From positions 1-64,000 of the forward strand of contig VEPG01000010.1 of NCBI GenBank assembly GCA_012026975.1: a DNA stretch of 64,000 nucleotides, in the 5' to 3' direction. Numbering within the stretch: position 1 is the stretch's first letter; the number at the start of each line of letters is the position of its first letter. The DNA is from Desulfuromonas sp. Its GTDB lineage: Bacteria > Desulfobacterota > Desulfuromonadia > Desulfuromonadales > BM103. Of the stretch, positions 6,521 to 63,325 are shown piece after piece. A program made the translations under genes and the position numbers. The notes below the pieces were generated by a model. It was not told where the DNA came from. It did not search any database and saw only the letters and a list, made by a program, of their open reading frames with translations.

Positions 6521-9198
<2,678 letters not shown>

Positions 9199-19351: not shown

Positions 19352-19427
19352 GCCGCCTTAGCTCAGCTGGTAGAGCAATTGATTCGTAATCAATAGGTCG
19401 CCGGTTCAAGTCCGGCAGGCGGCTCCA
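19352..19427 (+). tRNA. tRNA-Thr (anticodon CGT)
   Basis: A full cloverleaf is present. The acceptor stem is GCCGCCT (19352-19358) with AGGCGGC (19417-19423), the D-loop is AGCTCAGCTGGTAGAGC, the anticodon stem is ATTGA/TCAAT around loop TTCGTAA, and the T-arm is CCGGTTCAAGTCCGG. CCA is encoded at 19425-19427. Anticodon CGT reads ACG, threonine. Confidence 0.95.
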
Positions 19428-46200: not shown

Positions 46201-49148
46201 TAGACTTGGAAACAAGGGGTATTCGTCGCCGTCGTATATGCCTGCGCCAGCCCTGCGGTCTCCCAACCCGCGGCCCAGGTCGTAATCGTGCGACCGGTCG
46301 TGCCCGTGGTGCTGCGGGCCAGGTTGACAACTTCGATGGCCTGATCGCCGTCGTTGATGGTCAGCGCCGGATTGAATGGGCCGACCGTGGTATTGCCGGC
46401 ATTGCTGTTGTAGTTCTGCGTGCTCGTGAATGGTGTGGTCTGATTCACATTGCCGAACACCGCCGCGCCGACGTAGGTGTAGAGTGCGGTGCCGCCGGTA
46501 ATGGTCACGTTCAGGTTGTCGTCCGGCACGGCCTGGGCGGCCTGGATTCCCGCCTCATCCAGATAGTAGAGATAGGAATGATTCCAGGTGGCGGTCGAAC
46601 TGCCGTCGCCCGCGGCGAGGGTCAAGGCTTGCCCACCATAGGTAACGGATACGGTTTGATTTCCGACAGCCGTCCGCGTCGAAGCGATGGCAACGACCAG
46701 CAGACGCTGGCTGCCGGCGCCCACCGCATAGGCGGCATTGATGGTGCCGGCAGGATAGCCCGCCTGGTTATACTGCTGCGCCCAGGCATTCACCGTCCCG
46801 ATCGTTGCCGGCCCGGTCCCGGTCACACGGTACTGCAGGTTGTTCAGGTCGGTCGCCGTGACAAAGGTGGAACCGTTGAAGTTGCCGCCGGTCGCGGTCG
46901 TGCCGGTGAACGTAAGGGAGGAGAGCACCGACTCGGTGCACAGCGTGAGCTGGTTGCCGGTTGCCGGGGTCTCGCGGTAGTTGGTCCCCTGGTTATCACC
47001 GGCTGTATCGACGGTTCCCTTGTATTCGTAAACCGCGACATGATAGGTCGTGCCCTTAGTCAGACCAGTCACGGAGGTGCTGGTGCCAGTGCCCTTGTAG
47101 ATCACATAGTTGCCGGTGCCTATCTGTGCGCCGCTGCCGAAAACAGTATTTGCCGTGTAGGTGGTATAGGTGCCGTCGGCAGGATCGGCATCGACAGCCG
47201 ACACAGCTTTCATCAGAACGATGACGCCATCACCCGCGGTGCCGCGCGTCCAATTGACAGTCATGCCGGTCGAGGTGACGTTGGTGAAATTGACACCCGA
47301 CGCCTGAGCTGACGGTTCGGTGTAAAAAGAGCCGTCCGGCGAATATGCCGTGCCGACGGAGTTAGTCGCATAACCGCGATAGTAGATTTTGGTGCCGGCT
47401 GTCAGTCCTGTCCGCGCCTGTGTGAATACCCCGGTGGTCGTTCCCCCTGCAGCGACCTGATTGCCGGTCGGGTTCGCAGCCGTTCCCCAGACGGTGCCCC
47501 GAGCGGTCAGGGTCGCGCCGCCGTTGCTGGTAATGTTTGCACCCAAGGTTGCCGTGGTCGCTTCAAGCAGGGTGGCTGTTGGTGTAGTCAGAGTTGGCAG
47601 CCCTGGCGGAGTCTGGTTGCCAGTGGCCGGTGCCTCACGGTAGTTGGTTCCCTGATCGAATCCACTGGTGTCAAGTGCACCCTTGTATTCATAGACCGCC
47701 ACATAATAGGTGGTCCCAGAAGTCAGACCCGTCACCGCGACACTGGTCCCTGCTCCTTTAAAAACCACATAGTTGCCAGTGCCAATCTGGGTGCCGCTGC
47801 CAAAGGCCGCATTGGCTGTATAGGTGCTATACGTACCATCAAGCGGATCGGAGTCGACCGCCGAGGCTGCCTTCATCAGGACGATGACGCCATCGCCGGC
47901 CGTGCCACGCGTCCAGTTGACGGTCATTCCAGTGCTTGTAACTGATGTGAAGTTGACACCTGAAGCTTGAGCAGATGGTTCGGTGTAGAAGGAACCGTTC
48001 GGAGAATACGCCGTACCGATGGAATTGGTCGCATAGCCGCGGTAGTAGATCCTGGTTCCAGCAGTCAGTCCTGTTCGGGCCTGGGTGAACACTCCGGTGG
48101 TTGTGCTCCCTTCGGCAACCTGGTTGCCCGTCGGGTTCGTCGCCGTTCCCCAGACGGTACCTCGAGCGGTGATCGCAACTCCGCCATCGCCGGTTACTTC
48201 AGCACCTAGGGTTGCGGTAGTCGCCTCCAGAAGAGTTGCTGTCGGGTTGGCCAGGGTTGGGGCCGTCGCGGGCCGAATCGCCAAGGTTCCTGCTGCCCAC
48301 GAATCGCTGTTCGACGTTGTGCCTGTCCATGTTGCAGGGTCTAATGCACCGCTAGTCCACGCAATTGATGCAATACTCGCAATGGCTGACATCGTGGTGC
48401 CGGCACCTGGAACAGAAACCGGATTTCCATAACCCGATGGCGGGGTAAAAGCCGTCGGCGAAGCAGGACCTGTTCCGAGACCAACGGTCAGGACATAAGC
48501 ACCCGCTGTTACCGGCGTGATACTCGGGCTGTCCGGTAACGCCACGCCTGCGTTGTTGGCAGCAACAGCACTCGTTGGGGCAACATCCATCGGCGTTGCC
48601 TGGTTGGCTCCACGCCAGACATGAATAGCCGTCGCGCCACCGTTTGCAGCGTTACCGAAACCGCTTACGGTAACGGATGTGTCTGGCGTGCTCCCCATGA
48701 TCTTCCAGTTGACACTGAGGTTGGCATCTCTGGTGTCACTAGCGTATAGGTTAAGAACTTCCGTATAGCCCGCTGTTGTAACTCCGGGAGTGCCATCTGC
48801 ACCACTTGCCCAACCGGTGACCACAATGACCAGATCGCCTGCAGCAGGAGATGTTGCAAGACCTCCCGTCAAAGTGCCATTCAGGGAAACGTTATACGTT
48901 GCGCCGGTGCCATTACCGGATGTTCCACCGACATATTGAAGAGCCGCTTGCGCTGCAGACAACAAACCGACCGCGTTGAAAACAACTGCAAGCAGCACGA
49001 TCAAAGCTACGCGCAAAAATTTTCTCATCCCTCTCCCCTCCCCACCCCGACGCGGCACCGCGTCATCGTGACGTGCCGACCTGGTGACAGCATGACTGCT
49101 GCCGACATGTCCGTTGTTCATCATCTTTTCGCTGTGCCGTTCGTTCAT
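40227..49148 (-). CDS. Giant exported multihaem cytochrome c with FN3-like N-terminal half
   Basis: This is a 2973-residue protein. A signal peptide lies at about residues 41-68 (MRKFLRVALIVLLAVVFNAVG...AQA). Residues to about 1840 are beta-rich adhesin/fibronectin-III-like domains, with a near-duplicate block of about 215 residues at roughly 303-519 and 519-729. The last third (from about 1845) carries some 18 haem motifs: by my count 14 CXXCH, 3 CX3CH and 1 CX4CH, beginning CGTCH and ending CSKCH. CX4CH with CXXCH is typical of Geobacter outer-surface cytochromes. ATG 49148 has AGGAG 8 bases upstream; ATG 49028 also has a good site and a standard signal peptide. It is probably a cell-surface electron-transfer or adhesion protein. 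A GEMM riboswitch precedes it. Confidence 0.9.
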   Translation of the reverse strand: MNERHSEKMMNNGHVGSSHAVTRSARHDDAVPRRGGEGRGMRKFLRVALIVLLAVVFNAVGLLSAAQAALQYVGGTSGNGTGATYNVSLNGTLTGGLATSPAAGDLVIVVTGWASGADGTPGVTTAGYTEVLNLYASDTRDANLSVNWKIMGSTPDTSVTVSGFGNAANGGATAIHVWRGANQATPMDVAPTSAVAANNAGVALPDSPSITPVTAGAYVLTVGLGTGPASPTAFTPPSGYGNPVSVPGAGTTMSAIASIASIAWTSGALDPATWTGTTSNSDSWAAGTLAIRPATAPTLANPTATLLEATTATLGAEVTGDGGVAITARGTVWGTATNPTGNQVAEGSTTTGVFTQARTGLTAGTRIYYRGYATNSIGTAYSPNGSFYTEPSAQASGVNFTSVTSTGMTVNWTRGTAGDGVIVLMKAASAVDSDPLDGTYSTYTANAAFGSGTQIGTGNYVVFKGAGTSVAVTGLTSGTTYYVAVYEYKGALDTSGFDQGTNYREAPATGNQTPPGLPTLTTPTATLLEATTATLGANITSNGGATLTARGTVWGTAANPTGNQVAAGGTTTGVFTQARTGLTAGTKIYYRGYATNSVGTAYSPDGSFYTEPSAQASGVNFTNVTSTGMTVNWTRGTAGDGVIVLMKAVSAVDADPADGTYTTYTANTVFGSGAQIGTGNYVIYKGTGTSTSVTGLTKGTTYHVAVYEYKGTVDTAGDNQGTNYRETPATGNQLTLCTESVLSSLTFTGTTATGGNFNGSTFVTATDLNNLQYRVTGTGPATIGTVNAWAQQYNQAGYPAGTINAAYAVGAGSQRLLVVAIASTRTAVGNQTVSVTYGGQALTLAAGDGSSTATWNHSYLYYLDEAGIQAAQAVPDDNLNVTITGGTALYTYVGAAVFGNVNQTTPFTSTQNYNSNAGNTTVGPFNPALTINDGDQAIEVVNLARSTTGTTGRTITTWAAGWETAGLAQAYTTATNTPCFQVYIRNRNVTTAASDGSQHTASNTAFDSMTAMSLKPATVETVLIDWNADPQEAAAVLTNGSSYKLYARGTDTECGLTTYYVGGTTAPGNGQDFTWYTCYDADPSTITIPTGQTAYGTPYNAGNLKTTTGDVGTFEYKVTRTAAPAGPTTTTLYLQGDTTTNLGTDGTANLPTIQSTGTTIPYRGTTSTGATTATSWRPSTLAAGAKVLIRGYSPVYTYTSTLSSISANAALRSTATGDVFTMHLYDYDPATGTKTQIATSNTVTNISNAATTAAVFNTYTLVNGGKVQANHRLMYEIAATTFAGGTTCRVYYGGTTTTTGSWVAVTSTPDPTVTICTNWTATAAIPATAAGGSLCGDYVNLGTYTLEVRGTDPDCGAAITTTPTAFTWNACSETKTLTAPSPAAPITGPVTVTAGGTATGIQVSWSIDGGTNWSAWVANGSTFTPPPCASGSVIFRAQGSGDCATITVQSGAVAYNTNDADLATLTTTPSGTVTGLVVVRAQVGVESAPSTMTNMSVNITGAGACNVSNGVMTWNAGSSRWEYSWDTSACGTGPALSGVTLTTSGNDPDCGNYVTSAATSVTIDNTCIDNTSTVTWTVPGAPITVATAITATGTVGVTAIEVSFDDGGTWQTNGATFTPKVDQLGTAIFRFRALNVCGKRIYGGTVVEGATAPGKAYNVPFDGRLNRIRPLQITAQAFGKTSITVSMNYCSDKNDNAQTTVRYKLTSAPDLPANWTTVGPVIDGQAGDADGLRNQTVQFMLTSLTTDTSYDIEVTVTETAPDVVDWTTIQLSQATAPPWKKTVQLTSWVDSNLMHNALRFACSKIGYASEAACVGAGGTWDLNGKWPGGWGLPNASYPGAQYDAFECGTCHAKNSSNVKRVITAVTAKADTLPGSTVALQDVREGTAEFGDDSDSHTTSNRVCEVCHSQTTYHRQNSSTLTNKLHNNKTDCIRCHEHNVGFRASCDNCHGTPPVSAAGLATQPATTGSTVWGEHQRHAVDLGYDCNTCHNGWDGPNQMPKNGNLNIGFKVSVNPQFTGAVKQILGGTYEGRTTGGGYTGDTSTTPATVVNTASGDMTCAVYCHGYARPVWNPASTQPCGSCHGGIGTGVGYRAGAPTGLTVGGVTSRDLAGLTTGFQVGKHANHLDDSVYQTGDPCALCHDGFNYNDTTHVNGTVNVKLRQAAKLSSPGTTGGAGLGSSYNANRTCTTECHGATSWDSAAILNCTQSCHNYPPVGVTAGYSTYSSGVIKPVNHTTPNGLQYLKDNHGQCLYCHGWNDNGSGALPITGMTAAQLTAMNGDPAEAPNFTTYSSPGNTIGQHMDGTITLNDDGDANLANDADYDPTTGGCDNAVCHGNDTAHQFTIPGGINSPLKAADIGPGDCGACHTTGVGGATIVTSTSPHTTVTKNGTFTGCGSCHSGHYIKAGGVNIPNNATVGINYVGTQHGGIKLGGPGTHASIATKTTEAEICWGCHDAMGTANVKKATITFTATTIVDSGAGLGVFTVGKPLKVMGSSVVANNKWVTPTAVAAGTLTFPAATFTADATAGEMITLQDFVSEWGKNSYQAGAAAASQYQYDYGSLSTSNWTTATWTSGQAKFGYKTSKIQSTHAANSAGASTVTGTAYAYKESPDNVALIRCSYCHDVHDAVGPNGPPYLRGTWWGNPYEEDGAPQAATAYSVTAPFGAVPRGNGANQTYIGGFFIDINNVRPGTAGAAANGTASANPTATGGTGTGGAWTLADSAGLCTLCHGNNPSTMNWNTTETNMWFSANGHANAVIGGTGNVPAGTAANIFDLRGGTLSTTGATNTPAMHYWGGTATTGVAPGDVGTYGFRNGGNSGYNYTPSLSSVSENNEITTPGTNRWGTITIDAATINSQYHKFSCSKCHNPHASRLPKLMITNCLDTKHNTWDDSYQLNASNGAINTNRSISNWSTAQNCHRVGGIIPANRLIPGDSTTGGPTGNGLYAEPVDTGAVEATKGTGTNYSNRGWNTVTPW

Positions 49149-49462: not shown

Positions 49463-52400
49463 TTACTTCGGCAGACTGGTGTGGCAACCCATGCAGTTCG
49501 GCGCATAGGTGGCCGGGTTGATGTTCCCCGCCGAATTCCAGATCGCCGGCTGATTATTGTGGCAAGCAACATTACTGCAGTTGCCACCGGCGAAGTTCGG
49601 CGTGGCGAACGCCGCCTGGCCCTTGTCGTGGCTGGCCGCCGCCTTGTAGCCAGTGATGCGGTTCCAGACCGCCGACAGGATGGTGGTGCCGTCATTGGCA
49701 TCCGCCAGGTTGTCGCGCAGCTGGGCCTTTGACTTGAAGGCGGTCATGTCGACGAAGCTGACCTCGGCGGTGGCGGTGCCGTCGTCAAGGTGTTTCGACT
49801 TGTCGGCCACGGCCATAATCACTTCCGCGGCACCACTGTGGCAGCTGTTGCACTCGGTGCCGAACTTGTTGCGCGCCGAGGTCACGGTGCCGCTGTGGCA
49901 GACGTTGCAGCTGATGGTCGAGCTGTTGGTGGCATCACCGTGCGACTTGGTTGCCGTCGCCGTGGACAGCTTGCCGGTGGCGCCGGAGTAGATATCCTCG
50001 GCATGGATGCCGACCGCGTGGGCGCGGTGCGCGTTGGTGGTCGGGCTGTTGCCGTGGCAGTTGTTGCACGGATCGCTGTCGTCGCTGGCACCCCAGTTGG
50101 TGGCGGCCCAGTAGGCCGTGCGGATCGCATCGTTGCCCACGCCGGCACCCTTGCCGTTGTTATGGCAGGCGTTGTTGACGCAGCTGTCGGTGCCGGCAAC
50201 GTAGTTCACCGTGGCAGCGACGTTGATGGTCGGAGCGGCCCAGCTCGCCGAGCTGAGATGGTTTGCCAGGGTGTTGCCATGGCATTTGGCGCAGGTGAAG
50301 CGATACTCGCCGGCGGTAGAGCTATTGGCAGCCGCAGCGGTGTAGGACGTGGCACCGGCCGTCCCAATGTGGGCGTCGTGCGCGGCGGTTGCCGCGGGCG
50401 CCGCGTCGAAGTGGCAGATCGAACAATTGTCCGCCGCCGAGGGGGTGCGATTCCAGAGCGGCGTCACCTTGGCCGTACCATTGCCGTCCTGGTGACAGAT
50501 GTTGGTGGTGCAGGTACCGGGGCTGGCCGCCTGGGTGACGCCCAGGTTGGTACCGTTGTAGCCCATGGTGCCGAGAACGTTGATGCTGGCGTTCATGTGA
50601 TCAACATTTGACGTCGAACCGTTGTATGGATGGCACTTGGAGCACGCCATGCCGCCAGCGCTGATCATGACGCCATCGGCGACGAAATGCGGCTGATGAC
50701 CCTGGGCATTGTTCAGATGACAGAAGCTGCACTGGCTGTTGGTCGTGGTCCCCCAGGTATAGACACCGCTGGCCGGGGCGCCGTTGCGGCCGTTGTTGTG
50801 GCAGGCGTTGGTGCCGCACGAGCCCTTGACGGTCGGATAAGTGCCGGTATAGGCGAGCGTTACGCTGCCGCTCACGTTGAAGGTGCCGTTGATGTGGTTG
50901 CTGGCCGGCTTGGTGTTACCCGTCCAGCTGGTGGCCGCGTCATGGCAATAGGCGCAGCTGTTGTCCAAGCCGTAGATGCTGCCGCTGAGGTGCGCGGCGT
51001 GGGTCTGCTCGGCCGGGGCGTTGATATGGCACATGCTGCAGACGCTGGTGCTCGCGCCGTACCAGCTGTAGCCGGCCGGGGTGGTCATGTTGTTGTGGCA
51101 GTCGACGGTGGCGCAGGTCCCCTTGTTGGTGTCGCCGGCGGCATCCCAGGCACCGTTGTCGGCCGAACCGTCCCACAGTTTCTTCATGCTGGTGACGTTG
51201 CCCACCGAGTTCAGGTGGTTGATCGTGCCGGCGGGAGCCGGGTGACAGTATTCGCAGATGGCTCGCTGCTGGGCATCGTCGCCCGGCAGGGTGACGCCGA
51301 GCTTGGCCGCCACGATTTCCATATGCTTCTGGTGACGACCGGCACGGTCCGGAGTTGCACCGCCATCCGGCCAGTAGCTGTTGGTGCCGTTGCCGTGACA
51401 GCTGAAGCAGCTGCTGGGGAAGTCACCATAGGCAATCGTCCAGTTGGAGTCGGACATGGTGTGGTTGTAGTTCGACGCGCCGGAGTCGGTCAGGGAGCCG
51501 GTATGGCAGGCCGACAGGCAGCCGAAGTTGGTTTCGTCATACTGGGCACCGGCCGCGGTTCCATGAGCCGCATCCGGGCCGTTCATGTTGATCTTGCCGT
51601 CGCCGTGGCCGAACGGAGTCGGTGATCCCCCGCCCCAGGCTTCTTCGTATTGGTCACTGCCGTAACCGTGGCAGGTCTTGCAGTTGGCGTGCTGAGAGAG
51701 CATCTCGATATCGGTATCGGCATCCGGGCTGTCTTGATGGCCCGGCGCCATGCCGGCATTCCAGGCGTTGTCGACAGTGGTGCCGTCGGTCTTGTTGATG
51801 CCGTCGCCGTGGCAGTTGTCGCAAACCGCGGCGCCCGGGTTGTCGGTGGCGAGAGGTTTGGCATCGACCACGCCGAGCCACTTGCGCGACCACTTGCCGT
51901 TGCCGCTGTTGGCCACGGCGTCGAGATGGCACTTGGCGGCGCACCCGGCGGCACTGTAGCTGTTGATGTTGGCGTTCCAGGTATAGGTGATTCCGCCGGC
52001 GCCAAAAGCCGTCGGGCCGACGGTATTGATGTGCTGGCTAGTAACCGCGGTGCTGTGGCACGAAGTACAGGTCGCGGTCCCCGGCGCGGCTTCAATCGCA
52101 GTGGCCAGGAACTGGACATCGTGGGCCATGGCGGTAGCCGCCGTATGCAGGCCGCTGGTCGGAGCCAGATTGGCCTTCAGACCGGCCTTAGCATTGGTAT
52201 GGCAGTCGACGCAGCCGAGCAGGTTGGCCGCCGTCCAGGTGGCGTCGTTGCCGCCGCCGGCCGCGTTGTCCACGCCGTTGAGGGTGTGACAGGTGTTGGT
52301 GCAGTTCCCGGCCGCATAGGCGGAAACCTTGTTGCCGTCGACTTCGACAATGTTGTTCAGCAGGCTGTGGGTCACTGTATTGGTGCTGTGGCAATCGACG

Positions 52401-55400
52401 CAGCCAGCCGCGATGTAGCCGCCGCCGTGATCGGCGTGCTTGCCGGTTGCCGGCGGGAGGCCGCGGGTCAGCAGGGCGCCGCCGGCGCCGGCCCAGGTCT
52501 TGCCGCTGACGTGGCAGTCCTCGCAGCCAAGCTTGTTGGCGCTGGTCCACGACGGGTTGTCGGCTGCGGCGCCGACATTGTTGTCGAGCCCGTCGAGGGT
52601 ATGGCAGGCGTTGGTGCAGGTCGGCGCGCTGGCGACGGTGGCGTTGCCGCCGAGGTCAACCGTGCCGAAGACGTGAGTGGTTACGGCCTTGGTATGGCAG
52701 TCGTCGCAGTTACCCGGCACGTAGGTGTTGCTGCCGAGGTGGACGGCATGCTTGTTGGTGGTCGGCGTCGCCGCGCTGTCGCTGCCGTGGCAGGTGCCGC
52801 AGGCGCCGTCGCCGTTGTTAAGACCGGCGATGCGTGCGTCGGTGTTGAACCAGTTCGGCGCATTGGCCGGCTTGCCGCCGGTAAAGTTGCCGTGGCATTC
52901 GAGGTTGGCGCAGGTGGAGAATTCAGCAGCGACCGCACCGGCGGCGTTGTACTTCGGACCGAGCTTGGTCCCGGCGGTGGTGGCCGCATCGATCGACAGG
53001 GTCGTCTCAAGCGGAGCCGCGGCCGTGCTGAAGTCGATCACGCCGTTCTGGTGGGCGGCATCGATCGTCGACGGATGACACTGTGTACAATCCATGTTGC
53101 GGCCGTTGGCGGCCGTTTCGCCCATGTGCTTGTCGTGGGCATCCGGCAGGGTTCCCAACGTGTATGTGCCGGTGTAGACGTGGCAGTAGTTGCAGTTGGC
53201 CGAAGCCTGGTCGCCGGCGGTGTACCAGTCGGCCGCGACCGTGGCCGTGGTGTAATGGCAGTCGACGTTGGAGCAGCTGACGTTGCCACCGCTCTGGGTG
53301 ACGGACGAGGTCTGGACGTTGGTCGCGCCAAGGATGTTCTTGAACTTGCTGGTGGTTCCATTCATCAAGTCGGCCGGCGAGGCCGCCTGGTCACCCGAGT
53401 GGCCGCCACTCGGGTGGCAATAGCCGCAGGTGGCGTTTTTCTGTGCCATGGTGGCACCGACGCCGGCAATCTTGGTGATGTGGATGTCGTGAGAACCAAG
53501 ACGGTTCGGCCAGGCGGTACCGTGCTGGGCGGTGCTGTCGGGCCAGTAGTTGCCGGCAGCGGTGTTGCCGTGGCAGTCGGTGCAACCTGCCGCGAACGAT
53601 TCCGGCGTCGATTCGTGCCTGTGGCACTGGGTGCAGACCGAACCCGGATTGTGGCTGGCATCGGCGGTCACGCCGTTGGCCGTGCGGTTGAAATAGCTGA
53701 CCTCGGTCGGGTCGTGACAGACCTGGCAGACACCGGTGTTGTCCGCCTCCCAGTAACTGGCGCGGGCGGCCTTGTCGGTAAAGTTGTTGACCGTGCGGCT
53801 GGCGATGGTGCCGAGCAGCATGACGTCGGTGTTGGTCCCCATTCCATCGCCGTGCGGCTCGTGACAGGTGGCGCAGGCGAGAGCGTCATTGCTGGTGCCA
53901 CCGGCCGTCCTGGTGTTGGCATAATGCGAATTGATCGCATGGCAACTCTTGCAGAAGGCATCGTTGGCCGTCGCACCGCCGGTGAGCATGTTGCTGTCGG
54001 TCACGCCGTCGATGTGATCGGCGGTCAGCGTATGGCAGCCAAGGCAGTTCGGCGAACCGGCGGGGAGAGTCGGGTCACCATGACCGCCGCCGCTGACGTA
54101 GAAACTGTTTTTGGCCGGGGCGGTGCGGGCATTGATAACCGCCAGCACGCCGACATGGCAGGTGCCACAGTCGACGGAAGCCACGCTGGTCCAGATCGGC
54201 TCGCGGTCGTTGCCGGTGGTCTGACCGGCGGTGGCACCGTGGCAGGCGTTGCATACCGCCATGGCGGGCTTGTCGATCACGCGGTTGACGTGCGCGGCGT
54301 GGGTACCGGTCGAGGCGTTGGCACCATGGCACGTATCGCAGCCGATGCCGGCATTCAGGTGCTTGTCATGGGCATCGAGCAGACCGGTTCCGGCCGCAAC
54401 GGCATGGCAGTCGCCGCAGTCGCCGGTGGTCGCGTCATCCCAGTCGGGAGCCTGCTTGACCGCGCCTTTGCCGTTGCTGTGGCAGTAGGTCGTACAGGTC
54501 CCGTCGGTGTTGCCATAGGAACCGGCGCCGAGGGCACCACCCGCGGCGGCGCCGTTCAGGTCGAAAGCATTATCGAAGAAGACATCGGCCTGACCGTCGA
54601 CATGGTCGCCGCCGGCCGCCACCAACGCGGTGTTGCCGGTTGCCGTCTGGCTGTGGCAGACGTTGCAGGCATAGTTTTTGTTGAGGTGCGCGATATGCGT
54701 GGCCGAGTTATCGCGCTGGGCGGGGGCCATGGTGGCTGCGGTATTGCCGTGACAAACGTCGCAGGTCGCGATGTCGCCGGCACCCGTCGCCCAGACCGGC
54801 GCGGTTGCGGAGTACTTCTTGGCACCATTGCTGCGCGGACCGCCGTTGGAATGGCAATAGGTTGTGGAACAGCTGCCGTTGCCGGTCGCCGTGTAGGCCG
54901 GCGTAGACGTATCGGTCCAGGCGATGGTGCCGCTGCCGCTGAAGGTCACGTTCTGGAAGTTGCCGTCCTTGTGGGGAGCGGTTTCGACGTCGACCACGGT
55001 GTAATGGCACTGGTTACAGGCAAAGGAGTAGTCAGTGCCGCCGTTGGTGTGGCGCTTGTGCGGCGTCTGCGATTCATCTTTGAATTTGCCGCTGGTCGAG
55101 TAGTTATAAATGGGTGCGGTCGTGGTGACTGCGTAGCCGGTCGTCCCGCCCGCCGTATTGGTCGTCGGTGCATAGCCGTGGCAGCCGTTGCAGGTCTTGG
55201 TGAAGCTGCCGGTTTGGTGGCTGTGGCAGCCGACGCAATCCGCGGAAGTCGCCGATGCCACGTTGTGCTGGGTCACCGTCGCGGGGATATTATGGCACCC
55301 CTGGCAGTAGCCGGTACCGGAAGCGTTTTTCCATTCGGCCGTGGTCGTCGTGTAAGCCAGGGGATCGGAGTCGCCGGCGGCACCATCTTTGGGCACCCAG

Positions 55401-56365
55401 CCGAGAGCGGTGACCACGGGACGCAGCATGTTGTAGTTGCCGGCCGGCGAATGGCCGCCGTGGCAGTCGAGGCAGCCGAGGGTGGCGTGCGTGCCGCCGT
55501 GCTTTTCATAGATGTGGCAGGTCGTGCAGAGGGCAGAACTCTTGACGCCGGTCGCGTCCGTCGCCACCCGCCCGTAGGAGCGCAGCGCCTTGCCATTGCC
55601 GCCGGAAAATGAAAGATTATCCCAGTTGGACGGGATATCAGGGGTAGTCGGGTCGGAATCGGCAAAATGAACCTGGTGGCAGGAACCGCAGACCACCTTG
55701 CCGCCGGTGAGGCTGATCGGCGTATCGGTATTGATATTGCCGTCGTTTGTCGGCAAGGACCCCACCGCCACATACTTGCCGGGATGGGCCGCCGCCGCAG
55801 TCGCATAGTCGATATCGACCGGGTGGGTGACATTGGTCATGCCGGCCCCCTTGACCCAGGGCACGTGGCAAGCGGTACACATGGTTTCGGCGGAACCGAC
55901 ACCCTTGGTGAGCAATTGCGGGTTGGTGTCGTCACCGTGCGGGTTGTGGCAGCGCGAGCAGGTCACCCGGCCGGTCGACGCCCCCTGGCGGGAATAGAAC
56001 TCCGGATGCGTTATTCGCGAGGGGGCCGTTGCCCCGGCCGCCGTTTGAGTATCCGGCCCCGACCAGTTGTGCGAGGTCTGCCCCCTGCCGGCAACGACGG
56101 AGGCGTTGTTGCCCATGGCATTACTGGAGTCCAAGGCGCCAAACGCCGAATTTGTCGACCCGGTCGTCCCATCGTTCAGGAGTGTGTTCAACTCCCCGGA
56201 ATGGCACGTCAGGCAAACGTTGCCCCCGCCGAGGTCGGCAACCGACAGGGTCGGGATGTGGCAGTTCTTGCAGTCGAAGGTATGGACTACCACCGCGCCG
56301 GCAAGTTGCGGCAGGGTAAGTAGAGCCGCCAATACCACTGCAGTGAACATCGCTCTCGGTTTCAT
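49463..56365 (-). CDS. Very large exported multihaem cytochrome c, about 59 haem motifs
   Basis: The 2300-residue precursor has a signal peptide (MKPRAMFTAVVLAALLTLPQLAGA), and haem motifs begin within 10 residues of it. By my count there are 46 CXXCH, 5 CX3CH and 8 CX4CH motifs, spread evenly to the C-terminus (CMGCH). They form repeating modules of CX4CH-HNNG and CXXCH-GN types with many distal histidines (AHxxHL). No other domain is evident, so it is likely an extended haem wire on or outside the outer membrane. AGGAG lies 7 bases before ATG 56365. It follows a tetrahaem gene and precedes the giant FN3 cytochrome on the same strand. Codon composition gives long open frames on the opposite strand, which are not genes. 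Confidence 0.93.
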   Translation of the reverse strand: MKPRAMFTAVVLAALLTLPQLAGAVVVHTFDCKNCHIPTLSVADLGGGNVCLTCHSGELNTLLNDGTTGSTNSAFGALDSSNAMGNNASVVAGRGQTSHNWSGPDTQTAAGATAPSRITHPEFYSRQGASTGRVTCSRCHNPHGDDTNPQLLTKGVGSAETMCTACHVPWVKGAGMTNVTHPVDIDYATAAAAHPGKYVAVGSLPTNDGNINTDTPISLTGGKVVCGSCHQVHFADSDPTTPDIPSNWDNLSFSGGNGKALRSYGRVATDATGVKSSALCTTCHIYEKHGGTHATLGCLDCHGGHSPAGNYNMLRPVVTALGWVPKDGAAGDSDPLAYTTTTAEWKNASGTGYCQGCHNIPATVTQHNVASATSADCVGCHSHQTGSFTKTCNGCHGYAPTTNTAGGTTGYAVTTTAPIYNYSTSGKFKDESQTPHKRHTNGGTDYSFACNQCHYTVVDVETAPHKDGNFQNVTFSGSGTIAWTDTSTPAYTATGNGSCSTTYCHSNGGPRSNGAKKYSATAPVWATGAGDIATCDVCHGNTAATMAPAQRDNSATHIAHLNKNYACNVCHSQTATGNTALVAAGGDHVDGQADVFFDNAFDLNGAAAGGALGAGSYGNTDGTCTTYCHSNGKGAVKQAPDWDDATTGDCGDCHAVAAGTGLLDAHDKHLNAGIGCDTCHGANASTGTHAAHVNRVIDKPAMAVCNACHGATAGQTTGNDREPIWTSVASVDCGTCHVGVLAVINARTAPAKNSFYVSGGGHGDPTLPAGSPNCLGCHTLTADHIDGVTDSNMLTGGATANDAFCKSCHAINSHYANTRTAGGTSNDALACATCHEPHGDGMGTNTDVMLLGTIASRTVNNFTDKAARASYWEADNTGVCQVCHDPTEVSYFNRTANGVTADASHNPGSVCTQCHRHESTPESFAAGCTDCHGNTAAGNYWPDSTAQHGTAWPNRLGSHDIHITKIAGVGATMAQKNATCGYCHPSGGHSGDQAASPADLMNGTTSKFKNILGATNVQTSSVTQSGGNVSCSNVDCHYTTATVAADWYTAGDQASANCNYCHVYTGTYTLGTLPDAHDKHMGETAANGRNMDCTQCHPSTIDAAHQNGVIDFSTAAAPLETTLSIDAATTAGTKLGPKYNAAGAVAAEFSTCANLECHGNFTGGKPANAPNWFNTDARIAGLNNGDGACGTCHGSDSAATPTTNKHAVHLGSNTYVPGNCDDCHTKAVTTHVFGTVDLGGNATVASAPTCTNACHTLDGLDNNVGAAADNPSWTSANKLGCEDCHVSGKTWAGAGGALLTRGLPPATGKHADHGGGYIAAGCVDCHSTNTVTHSLLNNIVEVDGNKVSAYAAGNCTNTCHTLNGVDNAAGGGNDATWTAANLLGCVDCHTNAKAGLKANLAPTSGLHTAATAMAHDVQFLATAIEAAPGTATCTSCHSTAVTSQHINTVGPTAFGAGGITYTWNANINSYSAAGCAAKCHLDAVANSGNGKWSRKWLGVVDAKPLATDNPGAAVCDNCHGDGINKTDGTTVDNAWNAGMAPGHQDSPDADTDIEMLSQHANCKTCHGYGSDQYEEAWGGGSPTPFGHGDGKINMNGPDAAHGTAAGAQYDETNFGCLSACHTGSLTDSGASNYNHTMSDSNWTIAYGDFPSSCFSCHGNGTNSYWPDGGATPDRAGRHQKHMEIVAAKLGVTLPGDDAQQRAICEYCHPAPAGTINHLNSVGNVTSMKKLWDGSADNGAWDAAGDTNKGTCATVDCHNNMTTPAGYSWYGASTSVCSMCHINAPAEQTHAAHLSGSIYGLDNSCAYCHDAATSWTGNTKPASNHINGTFNVSGSVTLAYTGTYPTVKGSCGTNACHNNGRNGAPASGVYTWGTTTNSQCSFCHLNNAQGHQPHFVADGVMISAGGMACSKCHPYNGSTSNVDHMNASINVLGTMGYNGTNLGVTQAASPGTCTTNICHQDGNGTAKVTPLWNRTPSAADNCSICHFDAAPAATAAHDAHIGTAGATSYTAAAANSSTAGEYRFTCAKCHGNTLANHLSSASWAAPTINVAATVNYVAGTDSCVNNACHNNGKGAGVGNDAIRTAYWAATNWGASDDSDPCNNCHGNSPTTNAHRAHAVGIHAEDIYSGATGKLSTATATKSHGDATNSSTISCNVCHSGTVTSARNKFGTECNSCHSGAAEVIMAVADKSKHLDDGTATAEVSFVDMTAFKSKAQLRDNLADANDGTTILSAVWNRITGYKAAASHDKGQAAFATPNFAGGNCSNVACHNNQPAIWNSAGNINPATYAPNCMGCHTSLPK

Positions 56366-56586
56366 GGGCCAACTCCTAGCTGTTGCGGCGGATCGCATTT
56401 TCGCGGATGAATCCCGCTCTTAATAAACGAAGATCAAGTCTTTTAAGTCTATATTGCTGCTGCTGTTTACTCTCGTTTAAGCTACAGGCCTGCAATCTTA
56501 AAAAAACCTATTATAATACCCTAATAAACTGCTCGTCTTCCGTCCATTCAAACCATTGCAAACATGTTCATAGCTCGCCGGTCAGC

Positions 56587-57366
56587 TTATTTGTTGTGGC
56601 AGGCAAGACACAGGTTACTGCTATCGTTGGGACGAATCAGAAACGGCGTATAATCGGCATCGGTCACATAATCAACATGCGGATCGTGGCAGGAGGAACA
56701 TTCCACCCGGTTGTCGGTGCCAAAGAAACGGACACCTTCACCGAGCCAAGCCTTAGCCGTGGCAAGTGGCCGCAGCTGATTTTCCTTGACGCCACCAACG
56801 CCATATTCCGAACTGGAGAGCACCGAAGCATAGCTGAAGGAAATCGGATGGTCGTCGCGCAAATCGCCAAACGCCCCGGCATTGCCGCGCGAACCACCGA
56901 TCTTGGCAGCCGGATTACCGTCTAGCAACGGCTGAATTGGGACATCATCGTTAAAGGTAAAGGTGCTTCGGGGATTGCGGCCAAGCGTGTTTGAGGGGTT
57001 GAGCAGATGCATGACCGAGATGCTGCCATCGTGGCAGGCCATACACAGCAACGATTCATCATTGATGGCGCGAGAGGCCGACAACCCTTGCAAATAGGTT
57101 GAAAGGGTGGCGCTGTTATAGTGAGTCCACGGCCCGGTTGCCAGACTCCGGTTCCACAGGGGACCCTCAAGACGCCCGCCGTGCGGGGTGTGACAAAAGA
57201 TGCAAACTTCGCTCTCATCCGACTTGTACATTGCGTACGGTGCCGAACTTGACATGTTGTGGATGGTATTCTTGACATTGGCCAAACCTTTGGCCCAGAC
57301 GCTGCCCGCACCTAACAAAAGAAGTGTTGCGACCAGAAGAGAGAGAGTTAAGCGTGCGCTTTTCAT
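56587..57366 (-). CDS. Periplasmic or surface tetrahaem cytochrome c
   Basis: The 259-residue precursor has a signal peptide (to about residue 25, GSVWA). Four CXXCH motifs follow: CIFCHTPHG, CMACHDGSI, CSSCHDPHV and CLACHNK. The spacing with TPHGG and DPHV resembles the doubled-CXXCH cytochrome family (PF09699-like), found beside large electron-transfer cytochromes. It lies 29 bases downstream of the NHL protein gene and 221 bases upstream of the 59-haem gene, so it is probably co-transcribed with the former. GAGG is about 10 bases before ATG 57366. Confidence 0.9.
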   Translation of the reverse strand: MKSARLTLSLLVATLLLLGAGSVWAKGLANVKNTIHNMSSSAPYAMYKSDESEVCIFCHTPHGGRLEGPLWNRSLATGPWTHYNSATLSTYLQGLSASRAINDESLLCMACHDGSISVMHLLNPSNTLGRNPRSTFTFNDDVPIQPLLDGNPAAKIGGSRGNAGAFGDLRDDHPISFSYASVLSSSEYGVGGVKENQLRPLATAKAWLGEGVRFFGTDNRVECSSCHDPHVDYVTDADYTPFLIRPNDSSNLCLACHNK

Positions 57367-57394: not shown

Positions 57395-60205
57395 TCAATT
57401 CTTTAGAAGAGCTGCAAAATCCCAGACTGCCTTGCGAACTTCCCCTGGAGTGAGCATGCCGAGTAGCGTCGCTGCCGATTTTTTCGCCAAGCTATAAGTG
57501 CCGGCCGCCAGCTCGGTACGTACCTGACCGGCCTGTGTCAGTGCCGCCGGATTCGCCGCCGCAACCAGGAGAGTAATCTCGTCCCACTCCGTCAACAGAT
57601 ATTCATTGAAAGCATCGGCATATGTCCGGTCGGCACTCGGCCGGTAGATCAGTCGGCCGCCGACCTTGCCAAGGATCATATCCTGGCCCTTGACACCATT
57701 GACGCCTGCAACCGTTACCCCAAACACGTTGCTAAACGGCAAATTGCCGGCGGCGGTAAAAGCGCCACTCGTGGACAGATCGTTGCGATAGATTGCGGGA
57801 ATTCCGCCAACAGTCACCAGCAGGTCACGGTCGCCGTCGGCATCCCAGTCGACCGGGGTGATCTGGGCGGCACCCGCCACCTGGAAGAGCGCCACGCCCG
57901 CTGCCAACTGCGGCGCAGCATCGCTCCCCTGGTTGTAGAACACCGAGACCTGGCCGGCAGCATTGCCGACCACCAGATCTTTCTTGTCATCGCCGTTCAG
58001 GTCGACAATGGCCGGGAATGCCCCGCCGCCCACGCTCAGGACGCTGCCATCGACCGTCAGATCCTGACCGGCACCGAACGCCGGCGCCGTCTCGGTACCG
58101 CTGTTCGTGAAGAGCTTCACCGTACCGTCGGCCAGACCCACCAGCAGATCCTTGCGACCGTCGTTATCCCAGTCCGCCACGAAAGGCACCGCGCCCGGCA
58201 GCACCGGCAGACCGAGACTGCGCTTGGGCTGGAAGGTCAAAGCGGTTGCCGACTGCAAAGCCATTACCGGGAAAAGGGTCAGCTGGCCCGAGGCGTCGCC
58301 GACCAGCAGGTCGAGGCTGCCGTCATTGTCATAATCGACCAGGAATGGGGCGGCTTTCGGTGCCACTGCAAGCGAATCGCCCCCGTTGATGGTCCCGGCC
58401 GCAAATTTTGACAATTTGCAGGCAGGCAGCAGGTTGGCCGTCACCTTGGCGCTCGCTCCCTCGGCCAACTCTACCTGCGTGACTGACGGGTCGAAGCCGG
58501 CGTGCTCGACGACAACCGAGTAGTTGCCGGCCGCAAGGTCACGCAGCTCCAACGGCGCCAGACCGACGAACTGCCCGGCGAAACCGTGATTGCCATGCAG
58601 GTAAACCTTGGCATCGGCAACGTTGGCAGTCACTCTCAGCAGCATGACATCGTAGACGAAGCTGCCGGCGATACTCGGTTCCGAGAAGGTGCCATCGCCA
58701 TCCCGGGCCGCTACTCTCCAGAAATAAGTCGAACCAGCCACCAGCTTGTCGTAGCCGGCAAGTTCGGTCAGACCAACGGAAGTTCCCGGAAACGCCTGCC
58801 TCAGCAGGAGCTTGGTAAACGTATTGTTGATAGCGATTTCCAACCGATAGGCAAGCCGCGTGTCAGTCGGATCGGGATCGCTGGAGGCTCCCCAGCTCAG
58901 CACACCGTCGTCGCCAAGCTTTTCTCCGGCCAACGGCGACACAAGCGCCGGGGTGGTCGGCGCCTCGTCGGTCGCATTGACCACGAACGATGCCGGCGCA
59001 CTGACCGGCGCGGACGCCTCGGCGTCACTCGCCTGAACCGTCCACACGTAGGAGCCGTTCTCAGCCAGGATGTCGGCGGGAAGGGCAACGCCGGTCGCGC
59101 TGGTCGTGGTCGAGTAAACCGTGGCAGCACCCTGCTTGACGGTTACCGCGTAGGTCAGGGCATCCCCGTCGATATCGGTCGCGGCATTCCAGCTCAAGAT
59201 CGGCGTCATGCTCGCCACCACCGTCCCGCCAACCGGCGACACCGGCTGGGCGGCAGACGGCGCACTGTTGACCCGCACCGGGGTCGAACCGCCATCGATG
59301 CCAAAGATATCGACACCGGAGCCATCGGAGACAAACAGACGCTTGGTCGCCGGGTCATAGACCGCATCGACGGGTGCCGTCAGCTTTCCGGAAAGAGCGC
59401 CGAAGTCACCAAGGAGGGTCGCAAACGCATCGTCGAACACCCGCAGAGCCACCGGCAGATAGCGAAGCACATAGGCACGGCCGCCGACTTGACCTTCGAA
59501 GGCAATGCCACGGCCGGTGTGGTTGTCGGTGCCGTACAGAGTTGCATTCAGGACACTGGATTGCAAGGCGCCGGCCGTATCGAAAACCTGCAGGCGGGGA
59601 ACCGCGGCTTCGTTATTGGCGACATAGACGCGTGCCGCGAGAGGATTGACCGTAAGCGCACCAATGCTGGTGAAAAGGCCGGCGGTGTTGCCGGCTCCGC
59701 CGAAAGCCGACTTGAAGGTGCCGTTCGGAAAGAACACCTTGATGTTGAACTGACCAACCCCTGTATCGGCGACAAAAACATAACCGTCGGCATCCAGGTC
59801 AATTTCCGCGGGGTCGCCCAGCACTACGCCCGACAGGTAGCCGCCGACACTGCCGTCGGCCACATTGACGATGGCGACTGCCTTGGACTTGGTCGAGACG
59901 TACAGGGTCTGCCCGTCAGGGGTTACCGCCACCCCCTTGCCGCTGGCCTTCCCTTCCAGGAAGGACGCCACCTGCCGGCCATACCGGTCGTACTTGAGGA
60001 CGGTACGGGCAACCTGGTCGGCCACATAGAGATTTCCCTGCCCGTCCACGTCGATTGCGCGAGGGCTGACCAAGCTGCCGCCTGACAACTCGCTCAACCA
60101 GGTAATCTGCGGGACAGTGACAGCACCGGCCGGACTAAGCCATATGGCATTGAGCAGCAGTGAAATCACCACTGCAAGGCGTGCTACAGGGAAGAACCGG
60201 TTCAT
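57395..60205 (-). CDS. Exported NHL/FN3/PEGA/FG-GAP surface protein of the cytochrome cluster
   Basis: The 936-residue protein has a signal peptide (to about residue 28). An NHL-type beta-propeller spans about residues 30-305 (SPRAIDVDGQGNLYVADQVARTVLKYDRYGRQV, VFVADTGVGQFNIKVF). Two fibronectin-III-like modules follow (about 310-510), then a PEGA-like unit (about 520-590, VYLHGNHGFAGQFVGLAPLELRDLAAGNYSVVVEHAGF). An FG-GAP propeller region (about 610-850, DYDNDGSLDLLVGD, DWDNDGRKDLLVGL, DWDADGDRDLLVTV) completes it. Such NHL proteins accompany outer-surface cytochromes in Geobacter-type clusters. AGGAGG precedes ATG 60205 by 7 bases. The predicted sigma-54 promoter lies upstream. It heads an operon with the tetrahaem gene. 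Confidence 0.9.
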   Translation of the reverse strand: MNRFFPVARLAVVISLLLNAIWLSPAGAVTVPQITWLSELSGGSLVSPRAIDVDGQGNLYVADQVARTVLKYDRYGRQVASFLEGKASGKGVAVTPDGQTLYVSTKSKAVAIVNVADGSVGGYLSGVVLGDPAEIDLDADGYVFVADTGVGQFNIKVFFPNGTFKSAFGGAGNTAGLFTSIGALTVNPLAARVYVANNEAAVPRLQVFDTAGALQSSVLNATLYGTDNHTGRGIAFEGQVGGRAYVLRYLPVALRVFDDAFATLLGDFGALSGKLTAPVDAVYDPATKRLFVSDGSGVDIFGIDGGSTPVRVNSAPSAAQPVSPVGGTVVASMTPILSWNAATDIDGDALTYAVTVKQGAATVYSTTTSATGVALPADILAENGSYVWTVQASDAEASAPVSAPASFVVNATDEAPTTPALVSPLAGEKLGDDGVLSWGASSDPDPTDTRLAYRLEIAINNTFTKLLLRQAFPGTSVGLTELAGYDKLVAGSTYFWRVAARDGDGTFSEPSIAGSFVYDVMLLRVTANVADAKVYLHGNHGFAGQFVGLAPLELRDLAAGNYSVVVEHAGFDPSVTQVELAEGASAKVTANLLPACKLSKFAAGTINGGDSLAVAPKAAPFLVDYDNDGSLDLLVGDASGQLTLFPVMALQSATALTFQPKRSLGLPVLPGAVPFVADWDNDGRKDLLVGLADGTVKLFTNSGTETAPAFGAGQDLTVDGSVLSVGGGAFPAIVDLNGDDKKDLVVGNAAGQVSVFYNQGSDAAPQLAAGVALFQVAGAAQITPVDWDADGDRDLLVTVGGIPAIYRNDLSTSGAFTAAGNLPFSNVFGVTVAGVNGVKGQDMILGKVGGRLIYRPSADRTYADAFNEYLLTEWDEITLLVAAANPAALTQAGQVRTELAAGTYSLAKKSAATLLGMLTPGEVRKAVWDFAALLKN

Positions 60206-60375: not shown

Positions 60376-61749
60376 TCAAACCAGAAAACCGAATTTCTTC
60401 ATGCGGTAGCGGAAGGCGTCGATGCCGAGGTTGAGCTTCTTGGCGGCCTTGGACTGGTTCCCCTCGGCGATCTCCAACGACTGTCGGATCAGTTCGCGTT
60501 CGATATCCTCGATGTCGACACCTTCGGGAGGGATACGAAGATTGAGGGGGCTGCTGCCGGATTCACTGGTACGGGAAATCAACTCGCGGGGAAGATGATC
60601 GAGCATCAGCGTCTCCTCGCTCTCGAGGATGATGGCGCGCTCGATGATATTGCGCAGTTCCCTGACGTTCCCCGGCCAGGCGTATTCCTCGAGGAACTTG
60701 TGGGCCATCTTGGAAACCCCGGCGACATTCTTGCCGAACTCGCGGTTGAAGTGGCCGATAAAGAATTCGACCAGCGGCATGATGTCTTCGCGCCGGTCGC
60801 GCAGAGGGGAGAGATAGATGGGGATGACCTGAAGACGATAGTAGAGGTCGTTGCGGAACTCCTTGGCTTCGATCTTCTTGAGCAAATCCTGATTGGTGGC
60901 CGAAACAATGCGGACGTCGACGGGGATCTCCTTGGTGCCGCCGACCCGGCGGAAGGCACGTTCTTCAAGGACGCGCAGGAGCTTGGCCTGCATCCCCATC
61001 TCCATATCGCCGATCTCGTCAAGGAAGATGGTACCGCCGTCGGCGGTCTCGAACAGCCCCTTCTTCTGCACCTTGGCATCGGTGAAGGCGCCCTTCTCGT
61101 GGCCAAGCAGTTCGCTTTCCAGCAGGGTGGCGGGAACCGCCGCGCAGTTGATCGCCATGAAGGGTTTGTCATGACGGGCGCTCTCGTAGTGGATCGCCTT
61201 GGCAATCAGTTCCTTGCCGGTGCCGCTCTCCCCCTGGATGAGGACGGTGCTGGCATCGCTCTTGGCAACCTTGCGCACCATGTCAAGCACCTGGCCCATG
61301 GCGCGGCTTTTGCCGATGATGTTATCGATGCCGTACTTGCTGCTCTGCGCCGAACGCAGGTGGGCAACCTCCTTGCGCAGGTCGCGGGTTTCCAGCGCCT
61401 TGCGGACGATGATCGCCAGCTCGTCAAGATTGAACGGCTTGTTGATGTAGTCGTAGGCACCCATGCGCATCGCCTTGACGGCGGTTTCCAGAACGCCGAG
61501 GGCGGTGACCATGATGACAATCAGCTCCTCGTCGAACTCCTTGGCGCGGGAGAGCACTTCCAGACCGTCCATGCCGGGAAGTTGGATGTCGAGCAAAACC
61601 AGATCGGGGGAATCTTCCTGAATTTGCCGGAGCGCTTCCTCACCCGACGATGCCGTCTGCACCTCGTACCCCTGCTTGCGCAGCGACTGTTCCAGCGACC
61701 AGCGAATCAGGTGTTCATCGTCGACGACAAGGATTTTGGCTTTGCGCAT
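60376..61749 (-). CDS. NtrC-family sigma-54-dependent response regulator
   Basis: The 457-residue activator has a receiver (residues 1-120, D54 in LVLLDIQ), then an AAA+ sigma-54 interaction domain. Walker A is GESGTGKE near 171 and Walker B is GGTIFLDEIGDM. The sigma-54-contacting loop reads GAFTDA rather than the usual GAFTGA, a variant that may affect sigma contact. A Fis-type helix-turn-helix closes the protein (NQSKAAKKLNLGIDAFRYRMKKF). AAAGGG is 5 bases before ATG 61749. The haem-motif sensor kinase is just upstream on the same strand and is its likely partner. The NHL-cytochrome operon with a sigma-54 promoter is the likely target. Confidence 0.95.
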   Translation of the reverse strand: MRKAKILVVDDEHLIRWSLEQSLRKQGYEVQTASSGEEALRQIQEDSPDLVLLDIQLPGMDGLEVLSRAKEFDEELIVIMVTALGVLETAVKAMRMGAYDYINKPFNLDELAIIVRKALETRDLRKEVAHLRSAQSSKYGIDNIIGKSRAMGQVLDMVRKVAKSDASTVLIQGESGTGKELIAKAIHYESARHDKPFMAINCAAVPATLLESELLGHEKGAFTDAKVQKKGLFETADGGTIFLDEIGDMEMGMQAKLLRVLEERAFRRVGGTKEIPVDVRIVSATNQDLLKKIEAKEFRNDLYYRLQVIPIYLSPLRDRREDIMPLVEFFIGHFNREFGKNVAGVSKMAHKFLEEYAWPGNVRELRNIIERAIILESEETLMLDHLPRELISRTSESGSSPLNLRIPPEGVDIEDIERELIRQSLEIAEGNQSKAAKKLNLGIDAFRYRMKKFGFLV

Positions 61750-61852: not shown

Positions 61853-63325
61853 CTACCCTTCAGACAGTTCCTTTACCGGCAACTCGATGGTGACGCGCGT
61901 GCCTTCTCCGGGCTTGCTCGCCACCCGGATCGCCCCCCCCTGCTGTTCCATGAGCTGGCGGCAGATCGCCAGACCAAGCCCCGTCCCCTGGGTCTTGGTC
62001 GTATAAAAGGGGAGGAAGACCTTCTCCAGATCATCGGGAGGGATCCCCGGTCCGGAATCACCGATCACCACCCGGACGACCTCCGCGCCGTCACTCCGTT
62101 GAAGATCGGTCTGAATCAACAGGGTGCCGCCGCTCTTCATCGCCTGAATGGCGTTGATGATCACGTTGAAAAATACCTGCTGCAGCTGCTTTTCGTCAAC
62201 CCAAACCGGCGGCAGATTGCGGGTTAGTTCCTGAATCTGATGAACATTGCGTGCCTCCGGGTGCTGGGCCACGAAAAACAGGGTTTTTTTCAGCAGGTCA
62301 CTGGTATCGACCCAGACAAACGAAGGCTTTCCCGGTTTCCCGAAATAGAGCAGATCGGTGGCCGCCTTGTCGAGACGGGCAATCTGCTCAAGGACTTTGC
62401 CGACCACCTCGCGGCGCGGGTCGTCTTCCGAAAAATCGTCGGCAAGCACGGTGATCGCCCCGCTGATGGCGGCCAGGGGGTTCTTGATTTCATGGGCGAT
62501 GCCGGCAGACATTTCACCGACCGACGCCAGCCGGTCGGCCCGCTCCATCTGCTGATAGTGGCACTGTTGCAGATCGGTTTGGGCCTGGTTGAGCTTGTCA
62601 ACCATGGAGTTGAAGCTCCCCATGAGCTGACCGACCTCATCGGTGTGCCCCGGTTCCAGCCGGGCCGAAAGGTCGCCGGCTTCGACCAGGGCCATCTTGT
62701 CGGAGATCTGCAGCAGGGGCTGTCGGACAAAACGCTGAAAGATCAGCAGCACGCCGATCGTGAGCAGACCGATCATCAGCAGCATGGACACGCCGAAAAA
62801 ACGCGAGGAGGCATACATCTGCTCCTGCGGTTCGGTCAGCGAAAAATCGACGTTGAGGATGCCGATGACCTTGCGGCCACGACCGTGGCAGGGGGCACAC
62901 TGTGCTTCCGACCAGATCGGCTTGATGACCGCGAGAACATCGCCAAACGGGCCGCTATAGACATCATGGTTCGATCCACCCTGAAAGATTGCCAGTTCGT
63001 GCGGATTGACGCGACGGCCGATCTCGTGGGGGTCGGACGACTTGAGAATGCGCCCGTCGGGGTGGAAGATGCGCACTGCGGCCAGATGCGGGTCGCGCCC
63101 GATGGTTTCCAGGATCGCCTGGACATCGCGAGTGTTGCCGACACTCATCGAACTGGCAATCGAGCGCTCGATAACTGCCAGCATCAACTCGGCAGTATCC
63201 CGGCTGGTATCGGTAATGTTCTGATGTTCGCGCCGGATGTGCAAAAAGGTCACGGCGCCGATGGCCGCCGTGAAGAGCAGCAGCGAAAGGATCAAAATCC
63301 GGCCGGTCAGGGTTTTGAAGAACAT
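61853..63325 (-). CDS. Membrane sensor histidine kinase with a periplasmic c-type haem motif
   Basis: The 490-residue kinase has two membrane helices (about 8-28 and 175-197) enclosing a periplasmic sensor domain. In that domain lies SEAQCAPCHGRGRK, a CXXCH haem-attachment motif (C143, C146, H147). HAMP follows (about 195-250), then HisKA with H278 in GIAHEIKNPLAAISG, and HATPase (NVIINAIQAM, GDSGPGIPPDD, GTGLGLAICRQL). Haem in the sensor could respond to redox state, oxygen or NO. No good ribosome site precedes ATG 63325. The partner regulator gene starts 103 bases later. Linkage to cytochrome genes supports electron-acceptor sensing (inference). Confidence 0.93.
   Translation of the reverse strand: MFFKTLTGRILILSLLLFTAAIGAVTFLHIRREHQNITDTSRDTAELMLAVIERSIASSMSVGNTRDVQAILETIGRDPHLAAVRIFHPDGRILKSSDPHEIGRRVNPHELAIFQGGSNHDVYSGPFGDVLAVIKPIWSEAQCAPCHGRGRKVIGILNVDFSLTEPQEQMYASSRFFGVSMLLMIGLLTIGVLLIFQRFVRQPLLQISDKMALVEAGDLSARLEPGHTDEVGQLMGSFNSMVDKLNQAQTDLQQCHYQQMERADRLASVGEMSAGIAHEIKNPLAAISGAITVLADDFSEDDPRREVVGKVLEQIARLDKAATDLLYFGKPGKPSFVWVDTSDLLKKTLFFVAQHPEARNVHQIQELTRNLPPVWVDEKQLQQVFFNVIINAIQAMKSGGTLLIQTDLQRSDGAEVVRVVIGDSGPGIPPDDLEKVFLPFYTTKTQGTGLGLAICRQLMEQQGGAIRVASKPGEGTRVTIELPVKELSEG

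Follow-up and report, generated by a model that had tools for sequence, protein, structure and literature searches.

Genomic context of the kinase gene

The window, i.e. the whole analysed stretch of 64,000 nt, carries on its minus strand a gene for a sensor histidine kinase, the gene for its presumed partner, a sigma-54 response regulator, and an operon for multihaem cytochromes headed by a predicted sigma-54 promoter (Table 1). An earlier note on this DNA had placed a sensor kinase with a periplasmic haem-binding motif at exactly 61853-63325, giving no strand, and had read the motif as CAPCH at C143-H147, which is what residues 143-147 of the translation are. Plus-strand open reading frames overlap the kinase gene and were taken as shadow frames of GC-rich DNA; a stop codon lies in the corresponding frame of that strand. 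The protein has the make-up of a HisKA-type kinase, with a HAMP domain, a HisKA domain including its histidine and a HATPase_c domain, all above the Pfam cut-offs. Two hydrophobic helices were detected by Kyte-Doolittle hydropathy (scan windows beginning at residues 4-13 and 172-183), and the predicted structure has long helices (residues 6-61 and 164-215) on either side of a Cache fold. Both observations agree with the position between two membrane helices that had been claimed for the CAPCH motif and place it outside the cytoplasm.

Table 1 Position and basis of the features at the kinase, regulator and cytochrome genes
Feature	Position	Strand	Basis or remark
Sensor histidine kinase, 490 aa, TM - sCache with CXXCH - TM - HAMP - HisKA - HATPase_c	61853..63325	-	
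Transmembrane helix 1, ~residues 8-28	63242..63304	-	hydropathy
Periplasmic single-Cache haem c sensor domain (predicted), ~residues 31-171	62813..63235	-	PF21563 at residues 50-163; 3b42/3b47 profile match; Cache-fold model
Met60 codon, predicted distal haem ligand	63146..63148	-	invariant in 39/39; aligns with Met60 of GSU0582 and GSU0935
CAPCH, residues 143-147; Cys143/Cys146 thioether, His147 proximal ligand	62885..62899	-	roles inferred from the family
Transmembrane helix 2, ~residues 172-196	62738..62812	-	hydropathy
HAMP domain, residues 198-247	62585..62734	-	PF00672 above Pfam cut-off
HisKA domain, residues 270-331, phospho-acceptor His278 in HEIKNP	62333..62518	-	PF00512 above cut-off; motif read in sequence
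HATPase_c catalytic domain, residues 377-485	61871..62197	-	PF02518 above cut-off
NtrC-family sigma-54 response regulator, 457 aa, Asp54 receiver, GAFTDA loop, Fis-type HTH	60376..61749	-	
Terminator-like hairpin immediately after the regulator gene	60374-60345	-	one found; mean of shuffles 0.4
Predicted sigma-54 promoter TGGTATCAAGATTGCA, ahead of the cytochrome operon	60339-60324	-	
NHL/FG-GAP/PEGA repeat protein, 936 aa, signal-peptide-like start, first gene of the operon	57395..60205	-	conserved neighbour
Four-haem c-type cytochrome, 259 aa, 4 CXXCH, Paired_CXXCH_1	56587..57366	-	
Giant multihaem cytochrome, single ORF, 2311 aa, 46 CXXCH	49463..56398	-	
Second giant protein, 2973 aa, 14 CXXCH	40227..49148	-	putative member of the operon

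The multihaem cytochrome genes reported near the kinase were recovered as well, with 4, 46 and 14 CXXCH motifs in proteins of 259, 2311 and 2973 aa, respectively, the latter two being unusually large. Upstream of the kinase gene, positions 63379-63981 of the minus strand encode a small protein whose one hydrophobic helix is N-terminal; it looks like a pseudopilin by eye and gives no Pfam match. In many loci related genes immediately precede the kinase gene, and still further upstream come a conserved MVVGF protein and a metH-like gene. The only tRNA detected in the window is a tRNA-Thr (CGT) at 19352-19427.

A conserved, probable haem site in a single-Cache sensor domain

The window kinase was aligned with 38 orthologues, 18 of them from the window's family and close MAGs and 20 from other families of the class, so that the 39 sequences span 18 families including the window's (one, L051, has no family assignment). 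C143, C146, H147 and M60 are identical in all 39, whereas residues 144 and 145, the XX of CXXCH, are each occupied by ten different residues, which argues against a chance occurrence of the motif. Judging from this alignment, the haem site is under strong selection.

The sensor part matches the Pfam family Mcp40H-20_sensor (PF21563), which covers c-haem domains of Geobacter sulfurreducens, just below its cut-off of 27 bits: the whole window protein scores 24.7 bits (E 3.1e-5) and its sensor part by itself 26.0 bits. All 39 orthologues match it at E ≤ 0.1, the best at 3.7e-11. A profile built from the 39 sequences retrieved from the PDB the G. sulfurreducens sensor domains 3b42 (GSU0935, E 3.7e-7) and 3b47 (GSU0582, E 2.5e-5) and, more distantly, Tll0287 (5b82, E 0.014), and aligned M60 with Met60 and H147 with the haem histidine of 3b42 and 3b47. 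Position 60 of the kinase falls on residue 26 of both PDB chains; the review PMC8396549 numbers the haem histidines at chain positions 109 and 110 as 143 and 144, an offset of 34 by which residue 26 becomes Met60.

An AlphaFold model computed from the 39-sequence alignment (mean pLDDT 83, pTM 0.62) shows a single Cache fold on the long helices, with CXXCH borne by a helix (residues 141-147) between the strands 128-138 and 153-162. The motif helix is thereby predicted to sit where the preprint PMC12889525, which was available in part, describes it for the sCache_heme family, namely as a short helix inserted between late strands. Structure searches with the model led to Cache domains, among them WalK, CitA, DcuS and GSU0935, with WalK (4ywz) as the best match (Z 13.1, rmsd 2.6, 134 aligned residues). 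Foldseek returned 3b42 with E 7.6e-5, while the superposition on 3b42 and 3b47 was poor (rmsd 13-14). We do not hold this against membership because both structures are domain-swapped dimers and the model is a monomer; the swap may explain the poor fit. Neither 3b42 nor 3b47 is among the 50 entries listed by VIA-align, to which we attach no weight either way.

Homology to two crystallised c-haem sensor domains together with the invariance of the ligands strongly supports the earlier proposal that haem c could be attached at this site, and the sensor very probably carries a covalent haem c, with His/Met ligation predicted. The genome of the window encodes ResB, which belongs to a haem c attachment system (G000:C108:18400-19677). 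Elsewhere on the same contig (G000:C108:3676-4572) lies a second NHL-like gene, which is 52% identical over residues 11-306 and part of a 1543-aa frame.

The partner response regulator

The gene at 60376-61749 encodes a full NtrC-type regulator, with the Pfam domains Response_reg, Sigma54_activat and HTH_8 in the order typical of that type, which bears out the statement that the kinase sits beside a sigma-54 regulator. A sigma-54 response regulator follows the kinase directly in 37 of 37 loci (the window plus 13, 20 and 3 relatives; the kinase loci L017 and L019 stand outside this count). Over 17 aligned relatives the identity to the window's regulator is 69-96%, with Asp54 invariant and the HTH nearly so. 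The loop that contacts sigma-54, GAFTGA in its canonical form, reads GAFTDA in the window and GSFTDA in L042 and L065, and its F-T-D is invariant in 18/18 sequences. In one locus (L077, ~5480-6900) the frame of the regulator gene appears broken towards the 3′ end, by an assembly error or a real frameshift.

Searches for a binding site of the regulator, by gapped inverted repeats in 18 promoters and by palindromic expectation-maximisation in 21 regions, found none. A GTGAT-ATCAC inverted repeat present in 6 of the 18 promoters falls in signal-peptide codons of the first operon gene, and the motif from expectation-maximisation had converged on the 3′ coding end of the regulator gene; both were rejected.

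A predicted sigma-54 promoter between regulator and operon

The NHL/FG-GAP gene stands directly downstream of the regulator in 21 of the 37 loci and is usually followed, where the contig extends far enough, by genes for a four-haem and a giant cytochrome; it does not adjoin the pair in the remaining 16. An alpha/beta-hydrolase gene comes directly after the regulator in four of these operon-less loci (L049, L064, L071 and L073), and in the window a gene that resembles it by eye (35403-36182) is found on the far side of the operon. By gene order, the operon looks as if it had been placed like a cassette between fixed neighbours. Within the window's family, 4 of 18 kinase-bearing genomes have no match to the NHL gene (G003, G004, G005 and G011); in G011 and G022, both listed as 100% complete, the pair is present and the gene that opens the operon finds no match.

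We scanned the gap between regulator and operon with a strict version of the published sigma-54 consensus (PMC2725144, available in part), in which 12 positions are scored and the -24 GG and -12 GC are required. An earlier, more tolerant scan had accepted either C or T at two positions and either A or G at one other, choices made after the window's site had been seen by eye. In each of the 22 linked loci, i.e. the 21 above and L094, whose kinase lies off the contig, the strict scan found exactly one site with a score of at least 9 of 12. The background density of 116 sites in ~394,000 same-strand positions elsewhere predicts ~1.9 chance sites for the total gap length of 6291 nt. The design of the scan preceded the retrieval of four of the 22 loci, and all four have the site. 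Among the 16 loci without the operon only two have a sigma-54 site after the regulator, neither of the TGGTAY form.

Operon-like copies also occur away from the pair. Scored with the tolerant version (at least 11 of 12), five of eight such copies are preceded by a correctly oriented sigma-54-like site (L088, L089, L095, L096 and L097, the site of L096 lying inside a mechanically extended ORF start), one (L093) has a site in the opposite direction only and two (L098 and L099) have none. A genome-wide search for the form TTGGTAY-N5-TTGCA gave 0 to 3 sites per genome in 14 genomes. Six such sites outside the operon (L105, L106, L115, L117, L118 and L120) precede genes that by eye encode livG-like branched-chain ABC ATPases; as a clue to the targets of this regulator they are uninformative.

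The link between kinase and operon, which the earlier note drew from proximity alone, thus gains strength from the predicted sigma-54 promoter ahead of the operon in all 22 linked loci, but is weakened as an exclusive one, with 16 of 37 pairs lacking an adjoining operon. A conserved sigma-54 promoter next to the regulator makes the multihaem cytochrome operon the pair's most likely nearby target, as judged from gene arrangement and promoter conservation, and those 16 pairs, together with the four genomes without an NHL match, indicate that it is not the sole one.

A proposed circuit and its alternatives

On these grounds we propose that the c-haem (sCache_heme) kinase and the adjacent NtrC-type regulator drive the cytochrome operon, with redox as the preferred signal, an account that we consider reasonably probable as a whole. 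Its domains, ligand residues, gene adjacency and promoter are read from sequence; haem attachment, the Met switch, phosphotransfer and promoter activation are steps that we infer. Haem c would be attached in the periplasm via C143 and C146, with H147 as the proximal and M60 as the distal ligand. Oxidation of the iron, or binding of NO or CO, would free M60, as in GSU0582 and GSU0935, and its release would cause a movement that reaches the kinase core by way of the second transmembrane helix and HAMP. The phosphoryl group of His278 would then pass to Asp54 in the receiver of the regulator, and this AAA+ protein, once active, would open the sigma-54 promoter at 60339-60324, from which the NHL-repeat protein and the multihaem cytochromes would be expressed; other genes elsewhere are probably controlled too. 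We are least sure of the choice of redox over NO as principal signal and of whether the response is positive or negative.

The suggestion that the kinase acts as a redox or gas sensor matches what the excerpts available of PMC8396549 and PMC12889525 report for the sensor family. According to the former, the haem of GSU0582 and GSU0935 has a histidine and either water or Met60 as axial ligands, being high-spin when oxidised and low-spin with Met60 bound when reduced; NO and CO displace Met60, and the midpoint potentials are -156 and -251 mV. According to the latter, a TM-HAMP member from Pseudomonas azotoformans shows slow NO dissociation and forms no stable oxy complex, and family members fused to signalling domains are regarded as NO sensors.

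The same haem c kinase could accordingly have NO as its signal, with M60 displaced and the operon and other targets answering nitrosative stress or denitrification. The tight NO binding of the P. azotoformans protein (PMC12889525) and the binding of NO by GSU0582 and GSU0935 (PMC8396549) speak for such a role. We nevertheless consider it unlikely, if worth keeping in view, because M60, invariant in 39/39, is the very residue whose redox-linked binding is proposed as the switch in Geobacter (PMC8396549, as far as available), the adjoining genes code for proteins of electron transfer, and visual inspection of the neighbourhoods that were read revealed no gene for NO handling. Both the Met switch and the setting among electron-transfer genes speak for redox as the signal. 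A stronger form of this reading, a dedicated circuit throughout the class in which the Met60-ligated haem c kinase reads periplasmic redox and the regulator switches the giant multihaem cytochromes on or off, would set a signalling-fused c-haem Cache kinase with a redox signal against the NO-sensor view; we put it forward tentatively, at slightly less than an even chance.

A haem-bearing kinase might also control other genes altogether, the operon being a mere neighbour with its sigma-54 promoter served by another activator. The 16 pairs without an adjoining operon, G011 and G022, which have the pair and no match to the first operon gene, and the unsuccessful repeat and expectation-maximisation searches for the regulator's site around the promoters would all fit this. 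The sigma-54 site has been kept in the gap of all 22 linked loci from many families, however, and a promoter of this kind requires such an activator, the nearest of which adjoins it, so that we judge the idea improbable, slightly more so than a response to NO. Far less probable still is a haem-free CXXCH motif that binds a metal, forms a disulphide or survives as a relic in a Cache domain of the usual ligand-binding sort. The top structural neighbours are indeed non-haem Cache domains, e.g. WalK and CitA, but the two cysteines, the histidine and the distal methionine are strictly co-invariant, the sequence matches two c-haem crystal structures and the genome contains haem c machinery.

Relation to known c-haem sensors

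The closest known relatives of the sensor are GSU0582 and GSU0935 (3b47 and 3b42; PF21563), which have the same single-Cache/PAS-like periplasmic domain, the same placing of CXXCH and an exactly aligned Met60. These are chemotaxis receptors (MCP), whereas the window protein belongs to the histidine kinases and is paired with a sigma-54 regulator and an apparent target promoter. The sCache_heme/DUF3365/Tll0287-like family (PF11845), among which PMC12889525 in its available part counts GSU0582 and GSU0935, likewise joins a c-haem Cache domain to a signalling output, with transmembrane helices and a HAMP domain; even when E is relaxed to 0.1, PF11845 is matched by only 20 of the 39 orthologues, and Tll0287 has Cys/His ligation in contrast to the Met/His predicted for the window kinase. 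Further two-component proteins with a c-haem motif are reported for G. sulfurreducens (GSU0283, GSU0303, GSU0356, GSU0599, GSU1302, GSU2314, GSU2816 and GSU2916; PMC8396549, in part). The best NCBIfam matches were the AtoS/ZraS kinases and the NtrC/AtoC/ZraR regulators, which share the kinase core and the regulator's domain order; all of these matches stay under the cut-offs, and the sensor domain is of a different kind.

Both the sensor domain and Geobacter two-component proteins with a c-haem motif were thus already known from PMC12889525 and PMC8396549, as far as these were available. What appears to be new, on the basis of comparative sequence analysis, is the link from a c-haem sensor to a target promoter across many families of one class. 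We found no description of the kinase-regulator-operon circuit in the open-licence literature, and the available parts of the literature on purified or solved sensors named no target gene of any c-haem Cache sensor. The conserved partner regulator and the conserved promoter offer a transcriptional readout for the redox-versus-NO question. If redox is the signal, the sensor would couple the acceptor potential directly to cytochrome expression, and a circuit of this kind throughout the class would mean direct redox feedback on genes for extracellular electron transfer.

The sensor domain also occurs in other proteins. Proteins of ~679 aa that read as HAMP/GAF/HD-GYP-like share it (L027-L038; in the window's genome at G000:C106:6395-7171), and CXXCH and the methionine are kept in 12/12 aligned members from the window's family. 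A second kinase in the window's genome (L006, G000:C65:99263-100822), 33% identical, has a CX4CH motif (CSTAACH) at the haem position and an additional CLNCH, and is perhaps a two-haem version of the sensor.
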